From Parachlorella kessleri (taxonomy: Eukaryota > Chlorophyta > Trebouxiophyceae > Chlorellales > Chlorellaceae), in NCBI GenBank assembly GCA_001598975.1, contig BBXU01000576.1, positions 1-15,150 on the forward strand: a stretch of 15,150 nucleotides of DNA, read 5' to 3'. The notes beneath the pieces were generated by a model that searched no databases, was not told where the DNA came from, and saw nothing but the letters and a program-made list of their open reading frames with translations. Of this stretch, positions 1,055-14,130 are shown piece by piece; the stretch's first letter is position 1, and each line of letters starts with the position of its first letter. Made by a program: the position numbers and the translations under genes.

Positions 1055-2809
1055 TCACAGCCCTGCAGGCTTCTGGCAGTACTTGGCGGCGGCGGCCTCG
1101 CATTGCGGTGACGTCTCAAAGTTGTTTGCGTTGGCCTGGCACCCGCCGTACCTGCACAGTGTGCCCACATACAGTCATGGGTCCATCAGGCGGGATGGAC
1201 CCAACCTACAAGGCTTCCCCCTGTTAATCCTTGTGTGGCCCACCTCACAGCAACTCGACATGTGCAGCTCCGTGGCCAAACATTAAGGAGATGTGCCTGG
1301 GCCCAGAGGCACCGCAGTAGCTGCATGCACAAGTTGCACTGTCTGGCGACTCAGCTATCAGAGACATCCGTACATGTCGGCATGTTTGATGCTGCCTGCT
1401 GGGAGCCCCAGGACCCTTGCTGGTGTGCTGCACCCCCATGCACATGCGGAGCGGAGCTGCTACTCAGGACTGCCAGTCAGGCGACTTACAGGAAGGGCAT
1501 GCACGTCTTGGTGGCCGAGTTGTAGTACCAGCTGGGGATGGCACCGCGACATGGCCCGGTGAATGGCGGTAGCGTGCAGAAGCTGCTGCTCAGAGCCGCC
1601 TGCAGATAGTATGAGATAAGTGAGGCTCAGCACACCTTGCCACCGGCCCCTTCACACAGCCAAGCGCATTCATGAACCCTTAGCAGCGCTCTGCAGGCCA
1701 GGCCGTGCACTGCTCGGTGTGCTAGGGATCGACGGCCCGGGGGAACATTGTTGCCTACCCCTGGTGGCAGCAACAGAAGGGCATGCAGTGCTTGCGGCAT
1801 GAGGGCCGCTCCTTTTCTCAGGTAGTCGACCAGGCAGGCAACCGGGTCTTACCTCAGATGCGGGGGCCGCCGGCGCTCCTGCCAGGGGTGCAGTTTCGAT
1901 GATGTCTGCCCCCATGGGAGCTACTGCCGGCGAGGCCTGAGACGTAGGGGAGGAGGCGGGCTTGGGGGCTGCCGTGGGCGTCCCAGGCTTGCAGACCCCA
2001 CACGTGATCTGGCAAAAGCCGCCCTGCATGCCAGGTTGCTGGCAGGCTTGTCGCTAGCAAAAGCGGTAAAGCCGGCATCAGCGCAAGCTCGTCCGTTGCT
2101 ATGCAATGAGAGCATGCCATGCAGCGGACCCGCAACATATAGAGGCACCCACCTGAGTCATCCATGCCTCACTGCACTTGCCCCAGGCCAGCTGCTGTGC
2201 GCATGTGAAGCCTGCACGACAGGGGAAGAACTCTGGCGAGTTGTGTGGCCTTTATCCTGGCTTGAAATGCACAGAGCAAGTGCAAATCAGCAGCCTGCAT
2301 GTGCAAGTTAGTGACACATGTTAGGACGCCGATTATGTGCAGGTTGCTACGACAGTGCGCGGCCCATGCCTTACCCTCAGGGGTTGGCTTGTCAATGCAG
2401 GGCTCAAAGCCAGTCTGCAGGATGCGTCGACCCTGCATTCCTGTTGCAGCCACAATACTGGATAGCTCAGGCTTTGCTTCATGCGTCTATGGTCAACATT
2501 GGTCATGAGGGCAAGCCTGCCCCGGAAAAAGCCTTACAGGGGCATTGTGAATGTTATTGCTGTCCTTCTGCAGCAGCTCAGCAGCTGCAGCTCACCGTTT
2601 GAGATGGCAGCGGCACCAAAGGGCAGCGGGAACGTGACGACGCACTTCTGAGCTGCATCGTCCCACCCGCAGACTCCAGAGTCGGTGACGGTGTTCTGGC
2701 AGCTGCCGGCGTCTGTAAAGATGCTGCAGTTCACCCCAAAGCTGCCTGGAAGAGCTGCTAGAAGCAAGAGAGCTGCGCACGTGCACGTCAGTTTGAGATG
2801 GGGCAACAT
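1055..2809 (-). CDS. Secreted cysteine-rich protein with ShK-like and Kunitz/BPTI domains
   Basis: Predicted 238-aa secreted protein with a serine-protease-inhibitor domain. Exons in transcript order: 2809-2596, 2440-2375, 2211-2153, 2023-1853, 1599-1490, 1151-1055. All are GT-AG and phases close exactly (717 nt, stop TGA). Residues 1-25 are a signal peptide with an LLLLAAL core. A four-Cys segment spans about 28-56. Residues 86-124 form a ShK-like domain (C86, C97, C106, C117, C121, C124; motifs FTCAQQ, WGKC, GGFCQITCGVC). A Pro/Ala/Thr linker spans about 125-172. Residues 178-232 form a Kunitz domain with FCTLPPFTGPCRG, YYN, FLYGGC and NNF. Its first five Cys have exact BPTI spacing (9, 16, 8, 13). 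Arg188 sits at P1 after C187, which in this family suggests trypsin-like targets (inference). The last Cys spacing is 8 rather than 4 because of an Ala4 run. The start is the first in-frame ATG, followed directly by the signal peptide. Confidence 0.9.
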
Positions 2810-3368: not shown

Positions 3369-4806
3369 CTACCCACCCCTGCTGCCGCTGCTACATGCTG
3401 CTGCTGCCCTTGCTGCTGCTTGGGTGCCTATGCCGCTTTTGTCTCCTCCTGCTGTTGTTGCTGTTGCCCCAGCTGCATCACCGGTGCTGTCGCTTGCGTC
3501 TTCCTCTCGGACCAGCTTGCATTCCAGGGCATACTCTATCCGCTCTGAAGCCAATTGGTTATGAGCACATTGTGCACCTCCTGCAAGCACGCAATGGGGT
3601 GCTCCTTGCTTAACACTATCTGTTTAGGGCTCCACAGGCCTGTTCAGCAAACAGTTACACCTCTGGCCTCCGCAACCACCACCACAAGCTTTGCCTACCC
3701 GAGCCATTCTTTTTGTCTGGGTCACTGCGAGGGTACCTCTCAGAGTTCTCAGGGTGCGGCCAGATTGGATTGCGTTGTTCACCTGCAGCAAGCGGGGCTC
3801 TCGTTGACACTTCCACGTTTAGGGAACATAGCTGACAACTGGGCTAGCAATACTGGGGCCACTGCTGTGGTGTGCTCTCATCCCTGTGGGCATCGCAACT
3901 GCAAGCTTCCAGCGCTCCTTCTCTCCCGCATCGCACTGACGGACAGTATGCCAAGCAGGCTGCCAGCAGTGTGCACACTGGCAGACTGCCATCCTTTTCC
4001 TGACCACCTGCAGAGAGTCACCATGTAGAGAAATCGCATACAGTGCTTTCAGTGGCTTCTCCCCTCTGCCCCTTTGCCACCCGAGGACGCATCGCGCCAA
4101 CACAGTTGCTCACCATGCTCAACCCAAAGGTTGTGAACAACGTCCAGTCCAAGTATTGAAATGAGGCCATGCCTTCCACCACATCCCGCCGCACGTGATG
4201 TTCTGTGTAGCCTTGACTGCTTAAGCGCTAGAAGACTTCATCCAGCGGCTTGCCGTCTGGGCACCTCAGGTCATATTTCTCTGCCATGGCTGTTAGGCGC
4301 GGCTTGAGCCTGCAGCGTCCCCTCTGATATGTGTGAATCGTGCTCTGCATCCATGGCGGTTGCAAGCCGTAAGGACTCCATCCTTGGTTGAGCTCCATAC
4401 TCTTTCCAGACAGCCGCGCAGCATGCCCACCTATTAAAAGCCTTGATCAGCCCTTGCTTCTTGTATTTTTGCAAGAAGTTGGCAGGGTCCAAAGTTTTTA
4501 GCCGCGGTGCAACTGGACCAGCACTAGCCAGCGGGCCAGCTTGCTGTCTGACGTTACCACGTCTGGCTGGTCCCAGGCAAAGGATACGTCCTGCATAGGG
4601 TCGCCGCACTTACAAAGCACGGCCACGTTCCTACAGGCGGTGCACTACGGTATAGGAGTGCCTGGCATTGTAACTTAAACCAGGAATGGCCGGCGCCTTG
4701 ACGCGGCAGGCTCATTATAGCTCCCTGACGAGCAAATGCACAGCTTATAGGCGTTGGGTTTGCTGTCGCTTCCAAGGTAGCCATCGCCGCGCGCAACTGC
4801 CAGCAT
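3369..4806 (-). CDS. Unrecognised multi-exon protein with an in-frame TAG codon
   Basis: Modelled exons in transcript order: 4806-4730 (tentative first exon, weak donor GTCAGG), 4630-4614 (17-nt microexon, strong donor GTAAGT), 4512-4431, 4309-4114, 3782-3737, 3580-3369. Phases agree throughout (630 nt). Exon 3 is Lys-rich (NFLQKYKKQGLIKAFN). Exon 4 contains KYDLRCPDGKPLDEVF, then TAG (4230-4228), then continues in frame for 38 clearly protein-like codons (GYTEHHVRRDVVEG, QYLDWTLFTTF) to a GTGAGC donor. The last exon carries SERIEYALECKLVREED and an Ala/Thr/Gly-rich tail encoded by CAG-type repeats, ending at TAG 3371-3369. The product would be 209 codons with TAG at codon 86. The gene may be a pseudogene, a readthrough gene or a gene with a small extra intron, or the TAG may be a sequence error. 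I do not recognise the family. Exons 3 to 6 are more secure than exons 1 and 2. Confidence 0.55.
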
Positions 4807-4929: not shown

Positions 4930-7242
4930 ATGACACTCCCAGCCTTCCTGAACCTGAGCCTAGAAGAAGAGAGCAAGCTTGGACAGCTCCAGAAAGAGAT
5001 AAGCCCACTGATCAAGGTAAAACGAGTATCCAGGCTGGGCGCTCTCTCCGGGCAGACTGCCGACCAACCCCTGCTCAACAACTACTGGCCACCTTGGTGA
5101 CCTGCCAACAGCCACAGCTCCCTGCAGACCCCAGACCCAGCTAATATCTCTTCACCTGCCTCTAGCTGAAGAGCCAGTGCTTCTGACTTGCAGGACTCCC
5201 CAGCCCTACAGGCCTTCTGCACCCGCTCGTGCTATGTGCGCTACCTGCGGGCGCGGCACTGGAACGTGCAGAAGGCTGCCAAGATGCTGGCAGCTACGCT
5301 GGAATGGTAAGCATGGCAGCTTGCCAGTCGTCGCTGTCGGGCTGACTGGTGCAGCAGCGGCCATAGACTTCAGTGCGCGCAGGAGACACTATACCTGTGG
5401 GGCTTATAGTGTGCACTCTACCTCCATCTCAGGTTGCAGTTTGCGGCCCATGTTCTTGCTTAACATCCAACATCACTTGTTGTGCCACTCTTGGCAGGCG
5501 ATCCGAATACAAGCCAGAGGCTCTGACTTGCGAAGGGCTGGCGCATGAGGGCAGCAAAGGCCGCATGTATGTTCTGCCGCGGCCCGACAAGGAAGGGCGG
5601 CCCATAGTTGTCATGCGGCCCAGGTAAGCAGCATGCACCGCAGTCTGACCTGGAGGCTGGGCAACTTCCTCTGGGAGTTGTGCACCACATCCAGTGTCAG
5701 CTGCTAGCTCAGCCAAGGTCCAGCCCCCATGGTAGATGTCCCCTACAGTAAAGATAAGTATTGTTCGCTTAGTCTGGCTTCAAGTGTGCACAACTGCCTC
5801 GCATCTCACTACCAAGTGTCCATGCTGTTGCGGTAGTCATTAGAACTGTGCTGCTCTGCAGGGAAGACCCCAACCCCAGTTCTAATGAGGACCGCATCAA
5901 GTGGCTTGTGTATGTCCTCGAGGCGGCATCGGAGCTGGCCGATGCCACAGGTGTGTGGGTGGGGCAGCAGCCGCATCTTGGAGAGAGGATCGCACAGGCT
6001 CGGCGGCAGCTGGGAGGAGAGCCCAGGGGGCCAAAGGCTGTTTCGAGTTGTTGCCCATCAACTTTGCGCCGCTTGGCTGTTCCTGGTTCTGTGCAGAGCC
6101 GGGTACCATGACATGGATTATAGACTACGAGAACTACACTCGCAAGGCGTCCCCACCCCTTAAAGTCTCCTTGCAGACGCTGCACATCTTGCAGGCAAGT
6201 GACTTCCTGTGCCTCCCTGCTGCGACCTTTCCTCCCTCCTTCCCTCATCCCTGTTCTGCGACTGTGACGACACAACCAGCACAGCACCACAGTCCCTGTA
6301 GGGCGCACCACGGAACCCATAACCAAGACCTGGGTGTGCTTCACTGTTCTCCTCCGTTGCGGTCTCTGTGGTCAACCTGCTTGGGGGCGGCGCTTACCCC
6401 ATGCTCACGTCTGCTGTTTTTATGGGGCAAATCAGTTGCTGCTGTGCCATGCAGAACCACTACCCCGAGCGGCTTGGGCGGGCGGTGTGCTACCACCCGC
6501 CTGCCATCTTTGACCTGCTGTGGAGGGTAGGGCGGCTTGCTTCCTTGCTTCCTTGCTACCAGCTGCATGCTTACTGGCTGGGCATGGCAGGCGTGTTGCA
6601 TGCTTACTCCCTTCCCTGCTGGCCACAGCAGATGACGGCCGTCTAATGTAACACTTGCAAAGATCTGTTGCCAGTTCAGGTCTTACTCCCTGTCGAGTTA
6701 GGAGCGGTTGGCGTTTGTGTGCAGGCGGTGTGGCCCTTCATTGACCCAGTGACATACAAGAAGGTCGTGTTTGTGAACAAGAAGAGCCCCGAAGGTCAGT
6801 GGCCCTTGGGCCTCGGACCAGCTTAACACCCAAGGCAGGCTTTGTATAGCTGGTCGTGCACCGCGTCGATCTCATGATTGCCGTGGTGCCAACCCTCTCC
6901 CCACCAGCGCCGCTGTCGTGCGTTGGTGTGGCCCCGGGATGTGTCAAATAACCCAGGAGCCTCACCCCTTCCATGCCCTGCTTTGCACTGTCTGCCCCTG
7001 TAGGCCTGATGGGGAGTTATTTCCACCTGGAAGGGTTGGACGCAGCCCTTGGGGGCACAGCAACACTCCAAGACATCTTCAGCTGGCAGCAGTACGCCGC
7101 CCAGATGGCAGACAGGGACTCGCAGCGGCTGCTGCCAGGGGCGGGCTCTGGCAGGCAGAAGCAGCTGCAGGGGAAGGCCGAGGAGGCGGATGCAATCCAG
7201 GCGGTGGGAGTAGGAGTGCCGGTAGTGGCAGGGCCCCAATAA
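4930..7242 (+). CDS. Sec14-like CRAL-TRIO domain lipid-transfer protein
   Basis: Predicted 297-aa cytosolic lipid-binding protein of the Sec14/CRAL-TRIO family, whose members bind and exchange phosphatidylinositol or other lipids. Ligand specificity cannot be read here. Exons: 4930-5016, 5194-5306, 5498-5623, 5862-5950, 6097-6194, 6455-6526, 6725-6794, 7004-7242. Phases close exactly (894 nt, TAA). The CRAL-TRIO N helix region is at about residues 42-70 ([19 protein letters not shown]). The lipid-binding domain is at about 95-235, with [62 protein letters not shown] and a closing LGG. The last 60 residues are a Gln/Ala/Gly-rich tail without domain features. No signal peptide, transmembrane helix, GOLD or nodulin domain is present, so it is a stand-alone CRAL-TRIO protein. 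Intron 5 (after 6194) is GC-AG with CAG|GCAAGT. The ATG begins [14 protein letters not shown], a typical acidic N-terminus. Confidence 0.95.
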
Positions 7243-7533: not shown

Positions 7534-7803
7534 GATTTGAACCCGGTACTCAAGACAACAGCACTGGAGATAACTAAACTTGAACCTCGACCGCAATGGT
7601 TCCTTCTATTACTAGTTTTGTTGATGGTCGCAGGCAATGAGCACAAGGATAGAGTTTCTTCTAGTTAGTCAGGGGCTGGTCGTGCAAATAGAGTTCAACT
7701 TCTGCATTTTCACATTCTGCATTGCCGCTGGTGCGTCCCGCTCTATGCTGGGTGCACAGCCTCTGCTAATAGAGCTCTAGGTGAACTATAGTGACAGGGA
7801 CCT

Positions 7804-7914
7804 CCTATTAGCATGGGTGGCAGGTAGTGCAAACAGCGAGTAGAGCTGGGCTGGACTGGACCGGCAGGATTGAATGCAGAATGAGCCTGAGTCTTATATG
7901 AGTTCTTAGCCAGT
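7804..7914 (+). repeat. Interspersed repeat, copy 1
   Basis: Begins CCTATTAGCATGGGTGGCAG and shares the core GGGTGGCAGGTAGTGCRAAC with four other places in the window. It continues through a CTGGGCTGGACTGG block and GAATGCAGAATGAGCCTGAG. It is closely similar to copy 2, which starts 172 bp downstream in the same orientation. It lies in non-coding sequence downstream of the CRAL-TRIO gene. Confidence 0.75.
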
Positions 7915-7975
7915 AATTCTCTCCCCAAGATAAGCTAAGGCCACTGGAAGAGGAGATGCAGCTCAACTGAAGCAT

Positions 7976-8092
7976 CCTATTAGCTTGGGTGGCAGGTAGT
8001 GCGAACAGGGAGTAGGGCTGGGCTGGACTGGACTGACAGGGCTGGATGCAGAATGAGCCTGAGTCTTGCCTGAGTTCTGAGCCATCCCATTG
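7976..8092 (+). repeat. Interspersed repeat, copy 2
   Basis: Begins CCTATTAGCTTGGGTGGCAG. It matches copy 1 along its length, including GCAGAATGAGCCTGAGTCTT near the end. Copies 1 and 2 are direct tandem copies with about 60 bp of less similar sequence between them. Confidence 0.75.
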
Positions 8093-10773: not shown

Positions 10774-12233
10774 ATGGGGGAGCTGATTCCCATAGCAGAC
10801 GCCCAAGCGCTTGCTCTGCTACCACAGATCAGCCCCGAGGAACAGGAACGCAGAGAAAAGGAGGTAACGCGGCAGCTCGTTGGGAACTTGTTGAAGTGGT
10901 GCCTCCTCGCTTGCTCCCTCGCAACTCCAGGGCGCCCCTGTTCAGGTCACCTTGTGTGGAGGCTGGTTACAGGACAGGATGACATTAATTAACAAACTGA
11001 GTTCCTGCAGGCCCAGGAGCTTGAGCAGAAGCTGAGGTACATAGTTGAGGACCTCCCCAACCGTGTCTATCATGTCATGGGCAGCAATGCTGGCGCCGGC
11101 AGCGGCGAGTTCCACACCTATAGAAACGTACGTAGGTCAAGCCAGCTCCTGGCTGCAAGGTGCCCGCCGGACTGGGACAGTGGAGGCTGGGCGGTGTACG
11201 CAACTCGCTGCCAGGCTGGACAGTGCCGGGGATGCCAACAGGCTTGTTCTTCACAAGGCGCGTTGTCAGTAGTAGACCACGAGAGGCGGCGGCAAGAGCT
11301 TGTTTTGCGAGCGACCTGCGGCGTCTAGCCAACGTTGTGTGGCTGTTACCGGTGCAGGCACGGCGGAGAGAACAGGACCGTTTGGAGCGGATGGAGCGGG
11401 AGTATAAGGAGGACCAGGAGCGAAAAGAATACGAGGCAAGTACCGCCTTCTTCCCTCTGTGACCGCCCATGGTCAGGACACACGCTCTTCCGTAGGGTTC
11501 ATGGTGTGCTTGTGCTACCGCACCGGTGTTCTGCCTCGCTTGCCCGGCCGACAACTCATCCAGGGCCTAGGCCGGGTGACTGCCGTGCCTGGTCAAGGGG
11601 GTCTCGCTGTGGACCCGGCAGTACAGGAGGGGCCAGGCAGCAGTATACCCCGCAAAGCGTGCCCGTCTTGTCAGGCTTTAAGAGAGATGCGGCCCTGCTC
11701 TACTCTTTATGTTTGCACTCTAGACAGTGGTGTGGGCAGGGACGCTAGTGATTTGGTTTGGTGGCTTTTAAATTTTCCGGCTACAGGAGAGGTTAGCCAA
11801 GCTGAAACAGGAGGACGAGGAGCGAGCGGCAAAAAACAAAGCAAAGCGCTTGAAGAAGAAGGTGCGGCAACAGGCTGCTCCTGCTTCCCACCGCTTGACT
11901 GCTACATGGCGTTGGTAGCAGCTAGTGCTATTTGGCAATCTGGGGCCCTGGCTTGTTAGGGCTGCGTTCTAAGGTTGCCGCAAGGGGTGTCAGTAAGAGG
12001 CCATTGTCTGGAGAGCCCCAGCGCTGCATACCTGTCAGGTCGCTGGCTCAGCTCAACTGCTGAAGTGTGTGCAGGAGAAGCAGAAAGCCAAGAAGCGTGC
12101 CAAGACCGCTGAGGGAGGGGACGCAGCGGCAGCAGGGCAGCGGGACGATGCAGATGGCGGCAGCAGCGACGAGGAGGAGGCACGGCAACACCAGCAAGAA
12201 CCGCCAGCCGTGGAGCAGGCAGCCTTAGACTAA
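10774..12233 (+). CDS. PRKRIP1: PRKRIP1 homologue (DUF1168), spliceosome-associated protein
   Basis: Predicted 172-aa homologue of PRKR-interacting protein 1, a conserved nuclear protein. In human it was placed as a long helix in the step II (C*) spliceosome. Exons: 10774-10863, 11011-11127, 11358-11435, 11787-11861, 12075-12233. All junctions are phase 0 (519 nt, TAA). The family signature VMGSNAGAGSGEFHTYRN (about residues 52-69) runs straight into ARRREQDRLERME, then a long charged helix rich in Lys, Glu and Arg (about 70-135; ERLAKLKQEDEE, KAKRLKKKEKQKAKKRAK), as expected. The acidic/Gln-rich tail GGSSDEEEARQHQQE is low complexity. Length fits the human protein (about 184 aa). Intron 3 is GC-AG (GAG|GCAAGT). 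The ATG at 10774 is in a strong context. The frame continues a short way upstream but without an ATG. Confidence 0.93.
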
Positions 12234-12730: not shown

Positions 12731-13924
12731 TCAAGCGGGAGGTTGTGGAGGTGCCTCATTGGTACCTGCTGTTCTCTCCAGGCGTCTAATCAGCCTGGCT
12801 GGGTTACCTCCTACAAGACTGCACGGCTCAACATCCTTCACAACCACCGCCCCAGCTGCCACTGTCGAGCCTTCGCCTATGATAACCCCAGGGCAGATGA
12901 TAGCCCCACCCCCAATCCACACATCATCGCAAATGGCAACGGGTGCTGCTATTTGGGGTCCGAAGACGCCCCTGCGGTCGTCACATTCCAGGGGGTGGTT
13001 CCCTGCAGTGGGGAGCGAACAGGGGCCTAATCAGCGCGTGGGCTTACCAATAGCATTGCAGCTGGACACAGGTGCAGGGTTTCGGCATTGGTGCATGGCA
13101 CTCACTGTCCCTGCTCGATTCCGCAGTTCAGCATGCGTCTATAGCCCATAGCAGGACCGCACGCAACACTTGCACTACATGCAGCTTCGCTTCGGACAGT
13201 CCGGCCTGGGCTTGTGCATGCGTCTGGGCGCACTGCTCATTGCTCATGAGCTTGTGTAGCTCCTGTCGGCTGACTCTACTGTTACCACTGCACCGCTCCC
13301 CCACCACCAACAACGTAGGTTGCAGCACCCCTCACCTGTGAAAATCTGAACGTTTGGGCCCAATATTACCCTGTCTCCAATATGAATAGATGCACTGTCT
13401 AGGAATGTGCAGTTTACGTTGCAATAAAAGCTCCTGCCTACAGTAATGTTGTAGCCTGCGAGGAATGACAGCCGGTCAGCATCAGAACACCAGTGCCTGT
13501 TCCCCCGGCACCCAGACTGTGGTTTATAGGCAAGCACAATAGCGAAACAACCTAGTGCCATAGTCCTACTGCTTGTGCACCTTAGCTACCCTTGCAAGCA
13601 CCCTTGCTCACCATAGTCGCAGAAGATTGGCGGCTCCAGGAAGGGTGGTTCTGCCAAGTTCAAGCCTCCCAGGAGTTGCTGTAATACCTCCCGCCTGCCC
13701 TTGACGTTGTCATACGCCAGTTCCTGGTTATATCTTCTAAGTAACTTGCGAGCTCTGACACGGTCCTGCCAAAGCTCCTTATCCCTCCCTTGGAACGGCA
13801 GACCCCGCAGCATCCTGTCCTTCTCGCTCGTGGGACCGCTTGTTCCTGACGTCGCCTTGAGACGGTAACCTCCCAGGCAGCATCGTTGGCTGCTAGAAGT
13901 GATCCCAATCCTGAAGACGATCAT
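12731..13924 (-). CDS. Maltose/galactoside O-acetyltransferase-like hexapeptide-repeat protein
   Basis: Predicted 234-aa acetyl-CoA-dependent sugar O-acetyltransferase of the Maa/LacA family, a trimeric left-handed beta-helix enzyme. Exons in transcript order: 13924-13612, 13455-13336, 13002-12731. Phases close (705 nt, TGA). Residues about 33-95 match the N-terminal Mac domain (SEKDRMLRGLPF, RVRARKLLRRYNQ), ending FCDYG. Hexapeptide coils include NITVGRSFYCNVNCTFLD, IHIGDRVILGPNVQIFTG and VWIGGGAIICPGVIIGEG, then VVVKDVEPCSLVGGNPARL. His147 in GNHPLE is at the position of the family's catalytic His. The first 32 residues (MIVFRIGITSSSQRCC and on) extend beyond bacterial enzymes and have Ser, Arg and Thr but no early acidic residue, possibly an organelle-targeting peptide. 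A TATA-like GATATAATA on plus (13968-13976) lies about 45 nt upstream. The exact sugar acceptor cannot be told. Confidence 0.93.
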
Positions 13925-13976
13925 GACTGATCTTTGCGCGCTTCACTTCACATAATACTCGACCAGTGATATAATA

Positions 13977-14049
13977 TTATCAGCATGGGTGGCAGGTAGT
14001 GCAAACAGGGTGTGAGAGTTGAGCTGTACGAACAGGAAGGATGCAGAGT
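13977..14049 (+). repeat. Interspersed repeat, copy 4
   Basis: Starts ATTATCAGCATGGGTGGCAG, then GTAGTGCAAACAGGG, TGTGAGAGTTGAGCTG, GAACAGGAAGGATGCAGAGTG. It starts directly beside the TATA-like box of the acetyltransferase gene. It is shorter than copies 1 and 2. Confidence 0.75.
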
Positions 14050-14057
14050 GCGGGAGT

Positions 14058-14130
14058 ATTATTAGCACGGGTGGCAGGTAGTGCGAACAGGGAGTGAGAG
14101 TTGAGCTGGACTAACAGGGCTGGATGCAAT
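14058..14130 (+). repeat. Interspersed repeat, copy 5
   Basis: Starts TATTAGCACGGGTGGCAGG, then TAGTGCGAACAGGGAGTGAG, TTGAGCTGGACTAACAGGGC, TGGATGCAATG. It is a direct tandem partner of copy 4 with a period of about 80 bp. Confidence 0.75.

Follow-up and report, generated by a model that had tools for sequence, protein, structure and literature searches.

The window analyzed here, a whole contig of 15,150 bases (C343) from the genome assembly of Parachlorella kessleri, carries a gene in which a predicted signal peptide, a four-Cys segment, a Cys-rich module, a Pro/Ala linker, and a C-terminal Kunitz/BPTI domain are joined. The novelty of the gene lies in the fusion of the module to the Kunitz domain and in the conserved displacement, by what modeling indicates is one helical turn, of a classical cysteine; the middle domain has to be renamed. 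We think it fairly probable that the product is a secreted modular serine protease inhibitor that is held at the surface by its module and acts on trypsin-like proteases.

Gene structure and conservation of the fusion

The gene lies on the minus strand, from 2809 to 1055, and its six exons (Table 1) close in phase to give a coding sequence of 717 nt including the stop codon, which encodes 238 residues. All five introns (155, 163, 129, 253, and 338 nt) have GT...AG boundaries, each with a CAG 3' end. The original prediction, made from the sequence of the window, had proposed six in-phase exons with exactly this span and the same residue number for the P1 residue, Arg188. Exon 4 has an in-frame alternative acceptor with which it would start at 2038; the acceptor at 2023 was chosen because the relative P0002 reads WMTEGGFC and the unspliced frame P0012 stops after WMTE and resumes at GGFC. 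The proposed signal peptide is supported by inspection and by a hydrophobic core that scores 2.87 on the Kyte-Doolittle scale over 10 residues, and such a peptide would direct the 238-residue product to secretion.

Table 1. Exons of the gene and other features found in the window
Feature	Position	Strand	Content
Exon 1	2596..2809	-	Start codon, signal peptide (residues ~1-25, judged by eye), and the four-Cys segment, VNCSIF...QKCVVTF
Exon 2	2375..2440	-	Opening cysteine of the Cys-rich module (EPCIDKPTPEG), with a counterpart in P0002, P0007, and P0010
Exon 3	2153..2211	-	Middle of the Cys-rich module (GFTCAQQLAWGKCSEAWMTQ)
Exon 4	1853..2023	-	Last part of the Cys-rich module (GGFCQITCGVC), followed by the Pro/Ala linker
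Exon 5	1490..1599	-	Start of the Kunitz domain, including P1 Arg188; PF00014 match at 1492-1581
Exon 6	1055..1151	-	Remainder of the Kunitz domain (YGGCQANANNFETSPQCEAAAAKYC), stop codon
CRAL/TRIO exon	~6323-6643	+	E=1.8e-5; Sec14-like
Direct repeats	7803-8084 and 13975-14118		Four copies of 62 nt, 66-90% identical to the reference copy, and a pair of 110 nt with 88% identity
DUF1168 exon	~10993-11325	+	PF06658, E=4.5e-11; PRKRIP1-like
Maltose O-acetyltransferase-like gene pieces	12734-13942	-	Mac cap E=4.2e-14, hexapeptide repeats E=1e-8

Comparison with relatives confirmed that this is one continuous gene and not a chance reading. P0002 is an uninterrupted frame of 265 residues on a contig no longer than 1297 bp, which is probably a transcript, and it contains all of the domains in the same order. 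The four-Cys segment, module, linker, and Kunitz domain also follow one another in this order in P0007 from Micractinium, which is 33% identical over 86% of the query, and the four-Cys segment recurs in P0031 as well. A second, shorter Micractinium model, P0010, retains the signal peptide, two of the four cysteines, the module's N-terminal half with three of its six cysteines, and the Kunitz domain. The unspliced frame P0012 is identical to P0002 in the exons that they share, and its breaks, as judged by eye, fall at three of the five introns of the window gene: before GFTC, after WMT[QE], and after the Pro/Ala linker. The order of four-Cys segment, Pro/Ala linker, and C-terminal Kunitz domain that had been proposed for a single green-algal gene is thus found again in P0002, the fusion is kept in Micractinium, and the green-algal origin is likewise supported. 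The fusion of module and Kunitz domain, which the window gene has in common with Micractinium and P0002, appears to be new.

The best protein match, P0001, is the independently annotated product of this gene in NCBI (P. kessleri N2152v2_009357). At 95% query coverage the identity is 90%, and wherever the two models use the same exons their residues agree. Its first piece corresponds to the minus strand of the window at about 3369-3548, a false upstream first exon, from which the model enters exon 1 inside the signal peptide, so that the start is lost; it also skips exon 2. The six-exon model is the better of the two, since in both P0002 and P0007 the four-Cys segment is immediately preceded by a signal-peptide-like stretch and the exon 2 motif PC.D...PEG is present.

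Other relatives have different architectures. P0031 consists of the four-Cys segment, an acidic linker, and the Kunitz domain, without the Cys-rich module, which is therefore not essential everywhere. The models P0027 and P0029, which may be partial, also have no module and continue from the Kunitz domain into a hydrophobic C-terminus, possibly a membrane or glycosylphosphatidylinositol (GPI) signal. There may thus be more than one way in which the Kunitz domain is presented, at the surface or outside it.

A Kunitz/BPTI domain with an intact reactive loop

The predicted BPTI-type domain was recovered by its Pfam profile (PF00014) with 65.4 bits against a curated cut-off of 21 (E=5.4e-18), in a match to residues 177-226 that spans the last splice and stops at profile position 50 of 53. 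The reactive loop reads GPC-R188-GAI (P3-P3', P-C-R-G-A-I), and the P1 residue is Arg in all six complete algal-type domains, of which P0001, P0007, and P0010 come from named algae and P0002, P0027, and P0031 are called algal-type by resemblance. The same six domains are identical at Gly12, Pro13, Cys14, Arg15, Cys30, Phe33, Tyr35, Gly36, Gly37, Cys38, Asn43, Phe45, and Cys51 (BPTI numbering). As far as our searches show, the gene is single-copy in the assembly of 50.9 Mb and 1,642 contigs that they covered. A weak second Kunitz match on another contig (C871; E=0.03) proved on reading to be without the Kunitz cysteines and was rejected.

Structure prediction was carried out on the relative P0002 rather than on the spliced product of the window itself, and in agreement with the original prediction the Kunitz part of this AlphaFold model has the BPTI fold, from which exposure of the P1 residue would follow. 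The model was built on a 46-row alignment and has a mean pLDDT of 72.2 and a pTM of 0.38. In its Kunitz part, the ten-residue blocks of 201-250 have pLDDT values of 92 to 96, and the block 251-260, which contains the displaced cysteine discussed below, has 85. Superposition on the amyloid precursor protein inhibitor domain APPI gave 0.6 Å over 50 residues for the chain bound to mesotrypsin and 0.8 Å over 54 residues for that bound to trypsin, in comparisons that cover essentially the Kunitz part of P0002 (199-259). Animal multi-Kunitz proteins were excluded from the folded alignment because the Cys-rich module was aligned with their first domain; an earlier full-length AlphaFold run, with four sequences, reached a mean pLDDT of only 45.7 and was not used.

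Compared with known Kunitz/BPTI domains (PF00014, MEROPS family I2; APPI, tissue factor pathway inhibitor [TFPI], and SmCI), the algal domain is alike in fold, with the P0002 model at 0.6 to 0.8 Å from several APPI chains, and in its six cysteines, G-P-C-R loop, and YGGC and N.F motifs. It differs in the position of its last cysteine, in the intron inside the domain, and in the fusion to a green-algal module. With the plant Kunitz-STI inhibitors (MEROPS I3), whose fold is unrelated to that of BPTI, it has only the name in common, and that family was absent among the Pfam matches to the window product.

Displacement of the last cysteine

The cysteines of the Kunitz domain are spaced 8/15/7/12/7, versus the canonical 8/15/7/12/3: five of the six are in register, and the sixth, C232, comes four residues later than in BPTI. 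We file the domain as a Kunitz/BPTI variant, since both profile and fold place it in this family despite the spacing. Spacing 7 before the last cysteine was found in 6/6 complete algal-type domains, and the second half of the Kunitz domain of P0029 has it as well (by eye). Among the other domains with 8/15/7/12 spacing in the 21 matched proteins, all 61 have spacing 3 and none has spacing 7, although these are not independent and include near-identical ones (e.g., P0003/P0006 and P0018/P0019/P0024); three further domains with 8/13 spacing (P0023, P0025) also end in 3. Domains that were incomplete or divergent, P0029 and P0030 (in which an intron interrupts the domain), and P0012 (which has no Kunitz part) stayed outside this count. 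Spacing 7 was likewise absent from the 79 bacterial domains scored at 59 of 66 loci, the remaining 7 loci having been left unscored; 64 of these domains are canonical and the other 15 are off by one or two residues.

The bacterial set contains a separate variant of its own. In 12 of the 79 domains, encoded at 12 loci of Bacteroidota, Marinimicrobia, and one member of the Myxococcales, the spacing is 11/3 or 11/2 and a VPF-like motif replaces N.NNF.

In the P0002 model, the C-terminal helix comprises residues 246-256. Model residues 201-254 align with chain residues 3-56 of 1taw in one ungapped block, so that an alanine falls at the position of Cys55, and alanine occupies this position in 6/6 complete algal-type domains. 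Some structure alignments (e.g., 1zjd and 1aal) shift the end of the domain by about three residues, and others, such as that of 1taw, are unshifted. The model thus indicates a new Kunitz variant in which the last cysteine sits one helical turn later than in BPTI; with this displacement, the canonical position of the 5-55 disulfide is lost, a point that counts against the favored inhibitor reading.

The domain may have lost its inhibitory function and serve another role on the same scaffold, with the shifted cysteine reflecting relaxed constraint. The spacing and the alanine at position 55, uniform in the algal-type domains, and the early end of the Pfam match could be read in this way. We consider it improbable, since the P1 Arg loop and the scaffold glycines are unchanged in all six domains and the shift is itself conserved, which points to constraint and not to decay; moreover, BPTI without its 5-55 disulfide is native-like.

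In a Kunitz tree of 120 rows, built on 49 columns up to the fifth cysteine so that the columns of the trait were excluded, the six algal-type domains fall on one side of a branch with an SH-aLRT value of 82 (not starred), which makes a single origin of the displaced-cysteine domains likely. The tree, in which P0003 and P0006 were counted as bacterial by resemblance, is silent on whether the domain is of animal or bacterial origin, since 69 of its 113 inner branches are open.

Distribution and previous descriptions

Kunitz/BPTI domains had been described in the original prediction as best known from animals and their venoms. This is too narrow: the 66 bacterial loci mentioned above encode the domain, with records from Myxococcota, Planctomycetota, Bacteroidota, and Marinimicrobia, and it has also been listed for green algae (PMC4189545, in the part available). 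Its presence in bacterial records means that an animal donor is not implied. No relative of P0002 or of the Kunitz alignment was found on viral contigs.

The best PDB match and several of the protein matches of the window product are animal, and these, like the bacterial loci, might suggest an animal or bacterial contaminant as the source of the contig or of the domain. We give this practically no weight. The gene has introns, module paralogues lie on many contigs of the same genome, and the same protein is encoded on a 2.7-Mb P. kessleri contig, with homologues on Micractinium contigs of 2.1 Mb and 0.2 Mb; in addition, the algal spacing is absent from the 140 other scored domains (61 + 79).

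BPTI-type inhibitors as a kind are already known in green algae. MEROPS I2 ("Kunitz-A") is listed for Chlorophyta (Chlorophyceae and Trebouxiophyceae) in Table 1 of PMC4189545, where, in the part available, I2 is found by BLAST only in Chlamydomonas reinhardtii among the species of that study, others being recorded in MEROPS. The family, phylum, and class are those of our gene, and the available part of that paper gives presence only, without domain architecture, cysteine displacement, or Parachlorella. The suggestion that the combination is undescribed in green algae consequently stands for the fusion and falls for the BPTI type alone: neither the fusion nor the displaced cysteine was found described in the open-licence literature, which leaves most subscription papers outside.

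The Cys-rich module and its relation to a GH9 cellulase

The original prediction called the six-cysteine middle domain ShK-like. The ShK profile (PF01549) gave 10.8 bits for the window copy and 12.4 bits for the P0002 copy, both under the cut-off of 20.9, and Pfam returned only sub-threshold families for the window copy. A genome-wide search with PF01549 at E<=10 yielded 13 matches, 4 of them over the cut-off, and the window gene was absent; of the nine that scored lower, five overlap copies of the Cys-rich module. The domain does resemble ShK/ShKT in its six cysteines, its C..TCG.C ending, and a weak profile similarity, but under that name it falls short of the Pfam cut-off and is better termed a green-algal Cys-rich module. 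In an alignment of 20 module copies the six cysteines are invariant, and 16 of the copies match PF01549 (best E, 8.3e-4) and 4 match Crisp (best E, 0.0028) at E<=1; on these profiles the module appears to be a distant ShK-like family.

The module is widespread in the genome. A 40-residue module query gave 43 genome matches at E<=10, the two exons of the window gene itself included, and a DNA pattern for C.QQ..WG[..]C gave 11 matches versus 0 for the reversed control. Several copies adjoin long Pro/Ser-rich stretches. One open frame (C501:78575-79030) contains three modules in tandem, separated by Ser/Pro linkers.

One copy belongs to a GH9 cellulase gene (C112:30500-34600), in which a signal-like N-terminus, an intron-interrupted module, a Thr/Pro linker, and the start of the GH9 domain (GGWHDAGD) are consecutive. 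A profile of 17 genomic module copies, from which those of the Kunitz genes and of the cellulase contig had been excluded, scored the window gene at 55.1 bits and the N-terminus of the cellulase at 52.2 bits; the highest score among 1000 shuffled versions of the window protein was 6.1 bits. By this profile, the middle domain of the window gene is kin to the module on the GH9 cellulase of the same alga.

Cys-rich putative novel carbohydrate-binding modules have been described on GH9 cellulases of Chlamydomonas, Gonium, and Volvox (PMC6032398, in the part available), whose authors state that binding is still to be confirmed and term binding data "vital." Compared by description and not by sequence, those modules and ours are both Cys-rich (with a 6-C motif in four of theirs), and both occur on GH9 enzymes, partly via Pro/Ser/Thr linkers. 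The volvocine modules are C-terminal to the catalytic domain, whereas that on the P. kessleri GH9 is in the opposite place, at the N-terminus.

Alternatively, the Kunitz domain could be inhibitory and the module a protein-protein or purely structural ShK-type domain that does not bind polysaccharide, with the protein being freely secreted. This has an appreciable chance, short of an even one. The PF01549 matches among the module copies and the sub-threshold Pfam results for the window copy favor it, and carbohydrate binding by such modules is only putative even on cellulases (PMC6032398, as available). The weak similarity to ShK and, in 4 of the 20 copies, to Crisp, neither a carbohydrate binder by name, likewise counts against wall binding. 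However, the position of module copies beside Ser/Pro-rich stretches and on a GH9 gene is as expected of a wall-associated module.

Proposed function and significance

If the product is a surface-held inhibitor, as we favor, its Kunitz domain would present a rigid canonical loop with P1 Arg188 that inserts into the active site of trypsin-like (S1) proteases. The six-cysteine module would anchor the inhibitor to the cell wall or to extracellular polysaccharide, and the Pro/Ala linker would act as the spacer between module and Kunitz domain. Such an antiprotease may be directed against proteases of microbes or predators, which would be a form of defense, or against the wall proteases of the alga itself. 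A genome search gave 10 matches to trypsin-family exons at E<=0.001, which may be Deg/HtrA-like; their presence makes an internal regulatory target possible besides bacterial or grazer proteases.

More speculatively, and with considerable doubt, the Chlorellaceae may have their own Kunitz lineage, in which the disulfide linking the N- and C-terminal parts has moved one helical turn outward and a cellulase-type wall module has been added, yielding an immobilized antiprotease coat around a unicellular alga and a natural re-engineering of a much-studied fold. BPTI serves as the textbook case in studies of disulfide folding, and a natural variant that is conserved directly tests how far the 5-55 bridge can be altered. 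The idea is testable, since the gene is single-copy within the reach of our searches and gene editing exists for P. kessleri, according to the available part of PMC10916037. With its fused module, of a kind also carried by a GH9 cellulase, the gene points to the possibility that unicellular algae can anchor protease inhibitors at the cell surface, as this one may do.
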